Source: Altererythrobacter sp. (GTDB lineage Bacteria; Pseudomonadota; Alphaproteobacteria; Sphingomonadales; Sphingomonadaceae). From it: a stretch of 64,000 bases of DNA. Where the stretch lies: NCBI GenBank assembly GCA_016793865.1, contig JAEULJ010000009.1:1-64000 (forward strand), written 5' to 3'. Of this stretch, positions 56,764-59,408 are shown piece after piece (the stretch's first letter is position 1; each line of letters begins with the position of its first letter). The translations under genes were made by a program, and so were the position numbers. The notes under the pieces are model-generated. The model saw only the letters and a program-made list of their open reading frames with translations. It was not told where the DNA came from and searched no databases.

Positions 56764-56792
56764 TTGCTGGAACCGCACCGCACGGCTATCGC
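56764..56792 (+). promoter_or_regulatory. candidate promoter of the thrS leader
   Basis: TTGCTG (56764-56769) and TATCGC (56787-56792) are 17 bases apart. The expected transcription start, about 7 bases on, would coincide with the ATG at 56799, giving a leaderless message. The match is moderate and no experimental start is available. Confidence 0.4.
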
Positions 56793-56798
56793 CCGCGC

Positions 56799-56867
56799 AT
56801 GGCCGCGATGCAGACCTCGACTACGACCACTACCGGCTTCGCTCGGGGGCGGATGGTCGCGCGTTAG
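56799..56867 (+). CDS. threonine-rich leader peptide of thrS
   Basis: A 22-residue open frame ending in TAG at 56865-56867. The peptide is [20 protein letters not shown] then AR: six Thr in the seven residues 6-12, from codons ACC, ACT, ACG, ACC, ACT and ACC, with one Ser between. ACT is otherwise rare in this GC-rich sequence. It lies 124 bases upstream of the threonyl-tRNA synthetase gene. No ribosome site precedes it, which fits a leaderless start, as known for the trpL leader in Sinorhizobium meliloti. The likely role is sensing charged tRNA-Thr by ribosome stalling to control thrS (inference). Confidence 0.65.
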
Positions 56868-56910
56868 CCGCCGCCGCCGCTGCCCGGGATGGCGGGCGGC
56901 GCGGCGTTCC
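56845..56910 (+). promoter_or_regulatory. GC-rich alternative RNA pairings between leader and thrS
   Basis: GGCGG (56848-56852), within the last leader codons, can pair with CCGCC (56868-56872). The following GCC repeats (56870-56885) can instead pair with GGGCGGCGCGGCG (56894-56906), with an inner GCCC/GGGC stem. This is an antiterminator/terminator-like choice, but no U-run follows the second hairpin (TTCCTCC), so classic transcription attenuation is not assured. Confidence 0.35.
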
Positions 56911-56991
56911 TCCTGTCATCGGTTTTCCAACGCCGGACTTTGCGCTGCCTTGGCCCTGTGCCATGGGCGCGCCACACGAGACGGTAAGACG

Positions 56992-58989
56992 ATGACGGAC
57001 CTCTTCAAGATCAGCCTTCCCGATGGTTCGGTGCGCGAAGTGCCGCCCGGCAGCACGCCTGCAGACATCGCCACCGCGATCGGGCCGGGCCTGGCCAAAG
57101 CGGCGCTGGCGGCGCGAGTGGATGGCGAGTTGCGCGATCTCAACCGCGCCTTCGAAGGCGATGCAAGCCTCGCGCTGGTGACCAGCCGCGACGAGGCCGA
57201 CGCGCTCGAACTGGCGCGTCACGACTATGCTCATGTCCTGGCCGAGGCGGTGCAGGGCCTGTGGCCGGGCACGCAGATCACTTTCGGTCCGGCGACCGAG
57301 GACGGCTTCTACTACGACGTCATGGCGCCAGCGAGCCGGGGTCCGTTCACGCTCGACGATCTGCCCGCCATCGAGGAGCGGATGCGCGCCATCATCGTGG
57401 CGGACAAGCCGCTGACGCGCGAGGTGTGGAGCCGCCAGCAGCTCATCGACAAATGGGCTGCCGAAGGTGAGAGCTTCAAGGCCGAATGGGCCGCCGAGCT
57501 TCCCGAGGGCGAGGAGCTGACGGTCTATCGCAGCGGCGAGGACTGGCTCGACATGTGCCGCGGGCCGCACCTGCCTTCCACCGGCAAGCTCGATCCGGCG
57601 GCATTCAAGCTCATGCGCGTCGCGGGTGCATACTGGCGCGGCGACCAGAGGAACGCGCAGCTCACGCGCATCTATGGCACCGGCTGGCTGAACCGTAAGC
57701 AGCTCGACCAGCACCTCCACCGGCTCGAGGAAGCCGCCAAGCGCGACCATCGCAAGCTCGGCCGCGAGATGGACCTGTTCCATCTCCAGGAAGAAGCCCA
57801 CGGCAGCGTGTTCTGGCATCCGCAAGGCTTCAAGATCTGGCGCGAGCTGGAGGCGTATATGCGCCGGGCCATCGATGGCTCTGGCTACCGCGAGGTCAAG
57901 ACCCCGCAGGTGATGGATGCGCGCCAGTGGGAACAGTCCGGCCACTGGGGCAAGTATCGCGAGAATATGTTCGTGATCCCCGACGAGGTGCCTAACACCG
58001 AGGACCACGGGCCTATCGTCAGCGATGCCGCCGAATGGATGGCGCTCAAGCCGATGAACTGCCCGGCGCATGTCCTGATCTTCCGCCAGGGGCTGAAGAG
58101 CTACCGCGATCTGCCGCTGCGGCTTTACGAGAACGGCTGCTGCCACCGCAACGAGCCGCATGGTGCGCTCCACGGGCTGATGCGGGTGCGCCAGTTCACC
58201 CAGGACGACGCGCATATCTTCTGCCGCGAGGATCAGATCGTGGCCGAGGTGCGCGCCTTCTGCGAACTTGCCGACCGCATCTACAAGGATTTCGGCTTCA
58301 CCTATGCGGTCAAGCTGGCGTTGCGGCCGGAGCAACGCTTCGGCTCCGATGCGGATTGGGACAAGGCCGAGGCGGAACTGCGCCAGGCGGTTGTGGATGC
58401 CGGCATGGCCACGCAGGAATATGGCTGGGAAGAGCTGCCGGGCGAGGGCGCGTTCTACGCCCCCAAGCTCGAATGGCACCTGACCGACGCGATCGGGCGG
58501 ACCTGGCAGGTGGGCACGATCCAGTCCGACCGCGTGCTGCCCGAACGGCTCGACGCGAGCTATGTGGGCGAGGACGGCGAGAAGCACCGCCCGGTGATGC
58601 TCCACCGCGCGATCTTCGGCTCCTACGAACGCTTCATCGGCATACTGATCGAGCATTTCGCGGGGCGCCTGCCCGCCTGGCTTGCGCCGACCCAGGCCGT
58701 GGTGGCCACCATCGTGTCAGATGCGGACAGCTATGCGGGAGAGGTCGCGGCTCGTCTGGAGGCCGCTGGCCTCCGAGCCGAGAGCGATACCCGCAACGAG
58801 AAGATCAATTACAAGGTGCGCGAGCACAGCCTCGCCAAGGTTCCCTTCCTGCTTGTCGTGGGCAAGCGCGAGGCAGAAGAGGGTACCGTGGCGGTGCGCA
58901 TACTGGGTGAGAAGGAGCAGCAAGTGACGACCCTGAATGAAGCCATTGCCATGATCACGAAGGCGGCCACCGCGCCGGACCTGCGCTGA
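56992..58989 (+). CDS. thrS: threonyl-tRNA synthetase
   Basis: A 665-residue cytosolic class II aminoacyl-tRNA synthetase. Domains: TGS (about 1-62), the editing domain with [11 protein letters not shown] (HxxxH) and DMCRGPHLP, the catalytic core (about 260-540) with motif 2 [13 protein letters not shown] followed by [14 protein letters not shown], and motif 3 [18 protein letters not shown]; the anticodon-binding domain closes the protein. The start [12 protein letters not shown] at 56992 fits the family; in-frame sequence upstream is open to 56578 but crosses the leader region. The Thr-rich leader suggests regulation by tRNA-Thr charging. Confidence 0.97.
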
Positions 58990-59408
58990 TGCGCGCGCTT
59001 CTGGTACTCGCCGCGCCGCTGGCGTTGACCGCGTGCGACAAGCCGGCGGCAGCGCCCGAGGCCCCGGTCGGGACGCCGGCTGCAAGCGCCACAACCGTGA
59101 CCAGCGCGGCGCAGAAGGCCTATGCCGCCGTCAACGATCAGATGCATTCGGCGATGGCGGCCGTTCCGACCGATGCCGACGAGGCATTCATGCGCGGGAT
59201 GATCGCGCACCATCGCGGGGCGATGGCGATGTCCGAAGTCGAGCTGCGTTACGGCAAGGACAAGCAGGCCCGCGACCTCGCGCAACGGATCATCGACGCC
59301 CAAGGGGCGGAAATCGCCGAGATGGAAGCCTGGCTCAAGCGGCGCGATGCCCCCGCTTCACCGGCAGCCGATGCCCCGGCGACCGGATCGCAGCACGCAG
59401 GGCATTGA
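58989..59408 (+). CDS. DUF305 domain lipoprotein
   Basis: A 139-residue predicted lipoprotein: [18 protein letters not shown], with lipobox LTAC and Cys16. The mature part contains a DUF305 (ferritin-like helical) core, with DEAFMRGMIAHHRGAMAMSE, the conserved HHxxAxxM element of likely metal-binding His and Met, and RIIDAQGAEIAEMEAWL. The ATG overlaps the thrS stop by one base (TGATG), so it is probably co-translated with thrS. DUF305 proteins are often linked to copper; here the role is unproven. Confidence 0.87.
   Translation: MRALLVLAAPLALTACDKPAAAPEAPVGTPAASATTVTSAAQKAYAAVNDQMHSAMAAVPTDADEAFMRGMIAHHRGAMAMSEVELRYGKDKQARDLAQRIIDAQGAEIAEMEAWLKRRDAPASPAADAPATGSQHAGH

Follow-up and report, generated by a model that had tools for sequence, protein, structure and literature searches.

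The question raised by this locus is whether a short threonine-rich reading frame ahead of thrS, the gene for threonyl-tRNA synthetase, is a leader peptide that controls the gene, and by which mechanism it would do so. The window, i.e. the whole 64,000-nucleotide stretch of DNA that was analysed, carries the following elements at this place:

56799 to 56867, + strand: Thr leader ORF of 22 codons, by direct reading of the sequence
56814 to 56834, + strand: Thr sensor codons ACC TCG ACT ACG ACC ACT ACC, where Thr is kept in relatives with synonymous third-base change
56992 to 58989, + strand: thrS, threonyl-tRNA synthetase by domain content, the regulated gene in the proposed switch

The leader reads ATG GCC GCG ATG CAG ACC TCG ACT ACG ACC ACT ACC GGC TTC GCT CGG GGG CGG ATG GTC GCG CGT TAG, with a second in-frame ATG at 56808. 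Our recount agreed with the preliminary description and gave a 22-codon frame with six Thr in seven positions (56799-56867), a distance of 124 nt from the leader stop codon to the thrS ATG at 56992, and a leader frame that differs from the thrS frame. The thrS product contains TGS, tRNA_SAD, class II core and anticodon-binding domains. A DUF305 gene (58987-59408) has a one-base overlap with the thrS stop codon and may share the thrS transcript.

The threonine run and its conservation

It had been claimed that the density of Thr codons, including the rare ACT, is hard to explain by chance, and both remarks were borne out. When the 300 nt upstream of thrS were dinucleotide-shuffled 3000 times, no shuffle reached six Thr in seven codons, the best being five, obtained once, and among all frames of 8 to 60 codons on both strands of the 64-kb window just one other frame has five Thr in seven. 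Five consecutive ACN codons are found at 10 places in the 2.56-Mb genome, both strands taken together, the leader being one of them; as a control, the reversed pattern turned up more often (70 and 51 versus 5 and 5). ACT accounts for 21% of the Thr codons in 91 leaders compared to 4% in the complete thrS genes of the leader-bearing loci and 3% in the window's own thrS. A chance run of Thr codons was rejected on the shuffles, the genome-wide ACN count and the covariance-model matches at thrS described below, and conservation in relatives settles that the run is real. Rfam families, T-box included, gave no match to the leader at the gathering threshold and only a tRNA in the window, and an Rfam search of the leader in loci L002, L006 and L011 gave no match up to E = 1.

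For the comparison, thrS was located in the genus (60 genomes), in the family (119 genomes, with a match in 118) and in a set of named genomes (80 loci). A permissive scan detected frames with four or more Thr in seven codons in 99 out of 172 distinct upstream regions, including a few false ones. Most of the loci examined were chosen as best matches to the thrS of the window, which biases their leader fraction to close relatives; a further 40 upstream stretches were added to them. An earlier count of 76 leaders in 139 regions had counted the window twice and included non-homologous or decayed frames (L008, L027 and L080). Typical leader peptides in relatives are MTQARITTTTTTTPGFRGRAVAI and MLTTTTTTTTSVFRGRLVTR. 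The check named in the preliminary description, an alignment of the region upstream of thrS, has thereby been run, and a Thr-rich frame is clearly conserved there. Loci L001, L008, L027, L140, L163, L165, L157, L080 and L169 were left out before alignment, giving the 91 loci used below.

A covariance model of the leader RNA (R1) was built from alignment A3 (see below), 38 of whose 60 training rows are loci of the genus. R1 gave one match per genome in 55 of the 60 genus genomes, and the coordinates place every one of these matches immediately upstream of thrS, in a sample where many of the matched loci had also trained the model. Throughout the order R1 matched 67 of 246 genomes and 18 of 71 genera, all within the GTDB family of the window, which is a fairer figure than the fraction among the best thrS matches. 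For 37 of these 67 matches thrS coordinates were available; 36 stand just upstream of thrS and one (genome G118) about 570 nt upstream. No copy of the switch was found at another gene, each matching genome having one R1 match under strict filters by which weak matches can be lost.

The genus genomes without an R1 match differ in what they retain. G017 (L008) has lost the leader and kept b' and the proximal element described below, G029 (L152) has none of these, G021 (L140) and G036 (L330) have decayed leaders that match weakly, and the contig of G037 lacks the start of thrS. The decayed leaders in the genus (L027, L140 and L330) have a shortened Thr run and have lost region 1, with the downstream helices partly left. 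A search covering 77 of the 80 loci listed as leaderless revealed three, L044 (G118), L052 and L054, in which a gene of about 168 codons separates the leader from thrS downstream. This gene (MRYYIDTEFNGTGGQLLS...) starts shortly after b' and looks exonuclease-like by eye; the protein of the L044 copy had no Pfam match.

The arrangement of the codons was counted in 94 leaders (L157, L163 and L165 being kept here), 78 of which have the sequence RGR. Exactly three codons separate the last Thr from RGR in 73 of the 78, and exactly four lie from RGR to the stop codon in 75 of the 78. Thr is present in 75 of 75 at two leader positions with synonymous codon change, which argues for a constraint on the peptide. 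The RGR codons are near-invariant even at their third bases (CGG in 75, GGG in 73 and CGG in 74 of 75), which argues for a constraint on the RNA. The C-terminal end RGRxVAx is conserved and much of the remaining sequence drifts; the stop codon stays at the same place as TGA in 56, TAA in 21 and TAG in 14 leaders. As in an attenuator, the ORF is rich in Thr codons, which match the substrate of the synthetase it would regulate, and it bears signs of translation, the latter from comparative data only.

Promoter P1, candidate promoter P2 and helices of the leader RNA

Two elements with promoter-like spacing flank the leader RNA:

56764 to 56792, + strand: promoter P1, with -35 TTGCTG (56764-56769), 17 nt, and -10 TATCGC (56787-56792), from the sequence and relatives
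56939 to 56966, + strand: proximal element TTTGCG-N17-CATGG, candidate promoter P2 of thrS, present in 74 of 91 leader loci

In the window the leader starts 6 nt after the P1 -10 hexamer. In 88 of 91 leaders a -10-like hexamer is followed after 6 to 8 nt by a start codon in frame (7 nt in 59, 6 nt in 22 and 8 nt in 7), and the start is ATG in 85 of these 88. When the leaders were aligned on the -10, which was picked by rule, an unselected -35 appeared 17 nt upstream with frequencies of T 0.69, T 0.92, G 0.94 and A 0.82. A generic sigma-70 scan did not report P1. By its position, P1 should give transcripts whose 5' end coincides with the AUG or lies no more than a few bases from it, and the Thr leader is probably leaderless, since the start codon follows the promoter by 6 to 8 nt. 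An SD-like motif precedes 4 of 88 leaders, but it precedes just 16 of 91 thrS genes as well and is thus little informative.

The proximal element, TTnnnn-N17-CATGG about 50 nt before thrS, occurs in 74 of 91 leader loci compared to 1.6% of letter shuffles. It is also found before thrS in the leader-lacking loci L008, L047, L168 and L177 and is mostly absent from the other listed leaderless loci. The element is probably a second, basal promoter of thrS, P2, even with CATGGG as a poor -10.

Downstream of P1 the RNA can be divided into these pairing segments:

56843 to 56852, + strand: region 1 (TCGGGGGCGG, RGR codons), 5' arm of helix 1:2, defined by the almost invariant CGG GGG CGG and by pairing
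56877 to 56887, + strand: region 2 (CCGCTGCCCGG), by pairing the partner of region 1 (with one bulged G) or of region 3; in 2:3, 56878-56886 pairs with 56893-56901
56888 to 56901, + strand: region 3 / a, by pairing the 3' arm of 2:3 (56893-56901) and the 5' arm of a:a' (56888-56899)
56903 to 56908, + strand: b (GGCGTT), 5' arm of b:b' inside the loop of a:a', by pairing and covariation
56909 to 56920, + strand: a' (CCTCCTGTCATC), 3' arm of a:a', by pairing
56929 to 56934, + strand: b' (AACGCC), 3' arm of b:b', by pairing, followed by GGACTTTGCG

Helix 1:2 excludes 2:3, region 2 being common to both, and 2:3 and a:a' exclude each other because their arms overlap in region 3 / a. The consensus pairings are CCGGG-GGCGG with CCGCC-R-CCCGG for 1:2, CCRCCCG with CGGGYGG for 2:3, and GGTTTCGGG-c-GG with CC-t-CCCGAAAYC for a:a'. 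Helix b:b' occurs in relatives as GGTGTC/GACACC, GGCGTC/GACGCC, GGCATC/GATGCC, CGCATC/GATGCG and AGCGTC/GACGCT.

Arms were compared within their own locus and after swapping between loci, in a design where swaps, like the shuffles below, leave shared ancestry in the statistics. A fully pairing downstream hexamer for b was present in the own sequence of 80 of 91 loci, at least two of the 80 hits (L016 and L078) looking like chance matches, compared to 50 on average and never more than 60 when the arms were swapped 1000 times; with strict Watson-Crick pairing the figures were 71 versus a mean of 31 and a maximum of 41. Mean duplex energies in the 91 loci were lower for own than for swapped arms in 2:3 (-17.51 versus -16.42, best swap -16.82), in a:a' (-17.57 versus -15.08, best swap -15.63) and in b:b' (-10.95 versus -9.21, best swap -9.60). 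For 1:2 the own arms were not clearly better (-18.76 versus -18.33, best swap -18.86), and the swap test gives this helix no support because its 5' arm is nearly fixed.

Alignment A3 consists of 60 hand-picked loci among the 81 with a placed b', near-duplicates, long inserts and doubtful b' being left out. The end of each row was set from a b' that had been picked for its complementarity, which makes b:b' 100% paired by construction; the swap tests used all 91 loci. In A3, 2:3 plus b:b' is 99.1% paired with 44 double-change cells versus 13.6 in shuffled alignments, a:a' plus b:b' is 96.3% paired with 49 versus 12.3, and 1:2 is 97.7% paired with 3 versus 0.3, i.e. with little covariation. Helices 2:3, a:a' and b:b' covary, and 1:2 hardly varies. 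Folding of a 241-nt region of the window was no better than that of shuffles (z -0.67), and the exact pattern of region 1 plus region 2 had 0 matches in the window's own genome, owing to variant letters in the window.

To the eye, b' in some rows could also pair with a CGGTG further downstream, but this pairing was dropped. L163, L165, L157 and part of L016 carry a palindromic insertion of about 100 nt (CAGCCCTCACCCCC...GGGGGTGAGGGC) between a' and b', and b' is still present after it in L163, L165 and L157.

Ribosome position, output and alternative readings

The folding test of the switch was run on the 91 loci, without a shuffled control. With region 1 exposed the mean expected pairs were 6.25 for 1:2, 1.45 for 2:3, 4.24 for a:a' and 2.18 for b:b', and with folding from 9 nt after the stop codon, as for a ribosome at the stop, they were 0, 5.91, 0.99 and 3.56, respectively. 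With region 1 exposed, a:a' exceeded 2:3 in 68 of 91 loci, the other 23 failing, and 1:2 reached 6 expected pairs in 58; in the stop-codon setting 2:3 exceeded a:a' in 83 of the 91. The copy in the window showed no switch in this test, as 2:3 formed even with region 1 exposed (8.7 pairs versus 0.3 for 1:2), and L006 likewise kept 2:3 (6.8 pairs versus 1.1). Under the folding model, switching in these two copies would need 1:2 to be formed first, during transcription.

Given the usual footprint, a ribosome with the last Thr codon in its A site would extend about as far as the start of region 1, and one that has reached the stop codon would lie over most of region 1 and extend about to the start of region 2. 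The exclusive helices are thus placed for a choice by ribosome position, as in an attenuator, with the reservations that 1:2 covaries little and that the window copy fails in folding. The leader-peptide reading of the preliminary description is well supported by the conserved Thr frame in relatives and the covarying alternative helices downstream of it, and we consider it likely that the leader is a ribosome-mediated attenuator which reads the charging of tRNA-Thr and sets thrS.

In the proposed mechanism the P1 transcript would begin at or near the leader AUG, and its translation would be that of a leaderless ORF. With Thr-tRNA in short supply the ribosome would stall within the Thr codons, its leading edge not quite reaching region 1, three codons on, so that 1:2 could pair, a would be freed for a', and RNA polymerase would continue into thrS (on). 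When Thr-tRNA is plentiful the ribosome would reach the stop codon, hiding region 1 and leaving region 2 free ahead of it; 2:3 would form, a would be taken, b:b' would close as an attenuating hairpin, and the transcript would end before thrS (off). A separate thrS-proximal promoter, P2, would probably give a basal level. The sign of the switch, suggested by geometry and folding, the ribosome positions and premature termination as the output are inferred, and the response of thrS to threonine is a prediction.

The U-tract being weak or absent, the output named here is a proposed one. A terminator scan at the leader region found none, the hairpin b:b' being present. After b' there are two or three T in the next 10 nt in 70 of the 81 loci with a placed b', the commonest 10 nt being GCTTCAAGCG (24 of 81) and GCCCTTCCGG (9 of 81), and GGACTTTGCG after b' in the window could count as no more than a vestigial U-tract. 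CTTTTC stands within a few nt of b' in three Sphingomonas relatives (L125, L133 and L138); L044, L052 and L054 have no U-tract after b' and the start of another gene close behind. Taking CTTC after b' as a U-tract was weakened by the finding that its element stands before thrS in the leader-lacking L008, L047, L168 and L177, and the CTT may belong to P2 instead. The P1 transcripts may be ended by a weak intrinsic terminator, by Rho or by degradation.

A serious possibility, which we nevertheless do not expect to be the right one, is that the same Thr sensor and helices act through Rho-dependent termination or RNA decay, with an H-type pseudoknot of a:a' and b:b' as one state. Since b lies in the loop of a:a', the two helices can on paper form such a pseudoknot together. 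The weak or missing U-tract, the order a, b, a', b' with covariation in both helices, and the palindromic insertions that leave b' in place all point this way, as does the thrS leader of Streptomyces lividans, reported with a hairpin and no U-rich stretch in the part of the paper available to us (PMC8079986); the CTTTTC in the three Sphingomonas relatives and the six U in the second lineage (below) speak against it. More speculative, and as a whole rather unlikely, is the combined proposal that a leaderless Thr ORF steers between 2:3 and a pseudoknotted a:a'/b:b' with a Rho- or decay-based output and no canonical U-tract, and that Thr-leader control of thrS arose at least twice in Alphaproteobacteria with different outputs.

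In the usual textbook layout, that of trp, a stalled ribosome would cover region 1 and 2:3 would be the antiterminator. The exact front edge of the ribosome is an assumption of the attenuator model we favour, which leaves room for this polarity, but with the Thr run three codons upstream of region 1 in 73 of 78 leaders a stalled ribosome should leave region 1 free, and the second lineage works in the opposite way, so that we find it improbable. Even less credit is due to an action of the leader peptide or the released RNA in trans, for which peTrpL of Sinorhizobium meliloti is a precedent in the sections of the report at hand (PMC7298713) and which could account for the conserved RGRxVAx end; RGR is kept at the nucleotide level (CGG GGG CGG) and much else drifts, which speaks for a constraint on the RNA. 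Control by ThrRS binding to its own mRNA, known for E. coli (PMC2965389, as far as the portion available states), with an incidental Thr run, is very unlikely, as it gives the conserved Thr codons, the spacing and the exclusive helices no role.

Known leaders and a second lineage

To our knowledge the tuning of tRNA synthetases in Alphaproteobacteria is little known. In enterobacteria, thrLABC and pheM-pheST are attenuators whose leaders are rich in the sensed amino acid, pheST encoding a synthetase; they differ from the thrS leader in genes or amino acids and in hosts. E. coli thrS with its autogenous control and thrS genes with T-boxes respond to Thr or ThrRS status, but by protein-mRNA or direct tRNA binding and with no leader peptide.

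The preliminary description had supposed that a leader-peptide switch would be new for thrS. For the gene as such this does not stand, as Streptomyces lividans TK24 has before thrS a leaderless 18-aa leader, thrL, with two Thr (MKRVRPFLETTPGFVPAR), for which attenuation was proposed (PMC8079986); for alphaproteobacterial thrS our literature search, outside which lay most subscription papers and supplements, found no report of a Thr leader. In the excerpts of that study at hand, leader peptides are described or proposed also at alaS, leuS and trpS, and thrL resembles the present leader in its place before thrS, in a leaderless start, probable here, and in a following hairpin, which in thrL has no U-rich stretch (PMC8079986). 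It differs, by its description there, in having two Thr and one hairpin and in belonging to Actinobacteria (PMC8079986), whereas here 5 to 8 Thr and a covarying four-helix switch are found in Alphaproteobacteria.

The uORFC-8-2 motif upstream of cysS in Rhodobacterales is, in the available text, a leader-peptide attenuator with proposed read-through on starvation (PMC8632094). It too joins an alphaproteobacterial synthetase gene to a short ORF with codons for its own amino acid and to downstream stems, its two Cys codons lying within the first stem and a U run standing at the 3' end (PMC8632094). The tandem Cys codons before cysS that define it are replaced here by Thr codons before thrS, in another bacterial order, with the sensor upstream of region 1 and a weak or absent U run. 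The leader RNA of trpLE(G) in S. meliloti begins, according to the passages available, at the AUG of the leader ORF (PMC7298713, PMC10117765). This RNA is alphaproteobacterial as well, and stalling leads to antitermination, but it serves a Trp biosynthesis gene and no synthetase gene (PMC7298713). SEP5 of the same organism, a further Thr-rich leader candidate in Alphaproteobacteria, contains six Thr and three Lys codons and lies before an aspartate dehydrogenase gene in the portion seen of that report (PMC10117765). Predicted His leaders before hisS paralogs in Bacillus likewise concern a synthetase gene and differ, from what the accessible text gives, in lying in Firmicutes and in having His and another RNA (PMC2965389). 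What is new here is the clade for thrS, the long Thr run upstream of region 1, the covarying four-helix switch and the weak or missing U-tract. In a group of which many strains are in culture, thrS thereby gains a mechanism that can be tested through its exact codon spacing and predicted base pairs, and the locus offers a case where attenuation seems to work, or to be kept, without a proper U-tract.

A class-wide scan took in 60 regions upstream of thrS in other families, one of them just 230 nt long, drawn from 143 genomes, and gave five that reach four Thr in seven; L254 (six) and L244 (five) look real and L235 possible, in a scan that alone proves little as A, S, R, L and others also reach four or five in seven. 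In L244 the last codons of the Thr leader pair with the 5' arm of a hairpin that is followed by TTTTTT. Of ten thrS starts in the family of L244, eight (L286 and L288-L294) have the leader and L285 has none; in L287 the contig begins too near thrS (136 nt). Seven of the eight leaders contain GGAGGGTTTTTT, and six of the eight have TTGACA-N17-GATATT 7 nt before the ATG. The eight hairpins range from -18.2 to -30.0 kcal/mol, and the pairing of the leader end with the 5' arm from -17.2 to -25.1 kcal/mol. Read from the sequence, the sign is plain in this second family, an exposed leader end meaning no terminator, and this supports the sign proposed for the window's switch. Threonine leaders at thrS in two alphaproteobacterial families with unlike RNAs, together with that of Streptomyces, hint at a repeated origin.

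L254 (G391) belongs to another family, in which 24 other loci examined had no Thr leader; its own lone leader, MRTHPVLRSTATTTTTATGGRWRMRA, lies with hairpins 241 to 322 nt before thrS.
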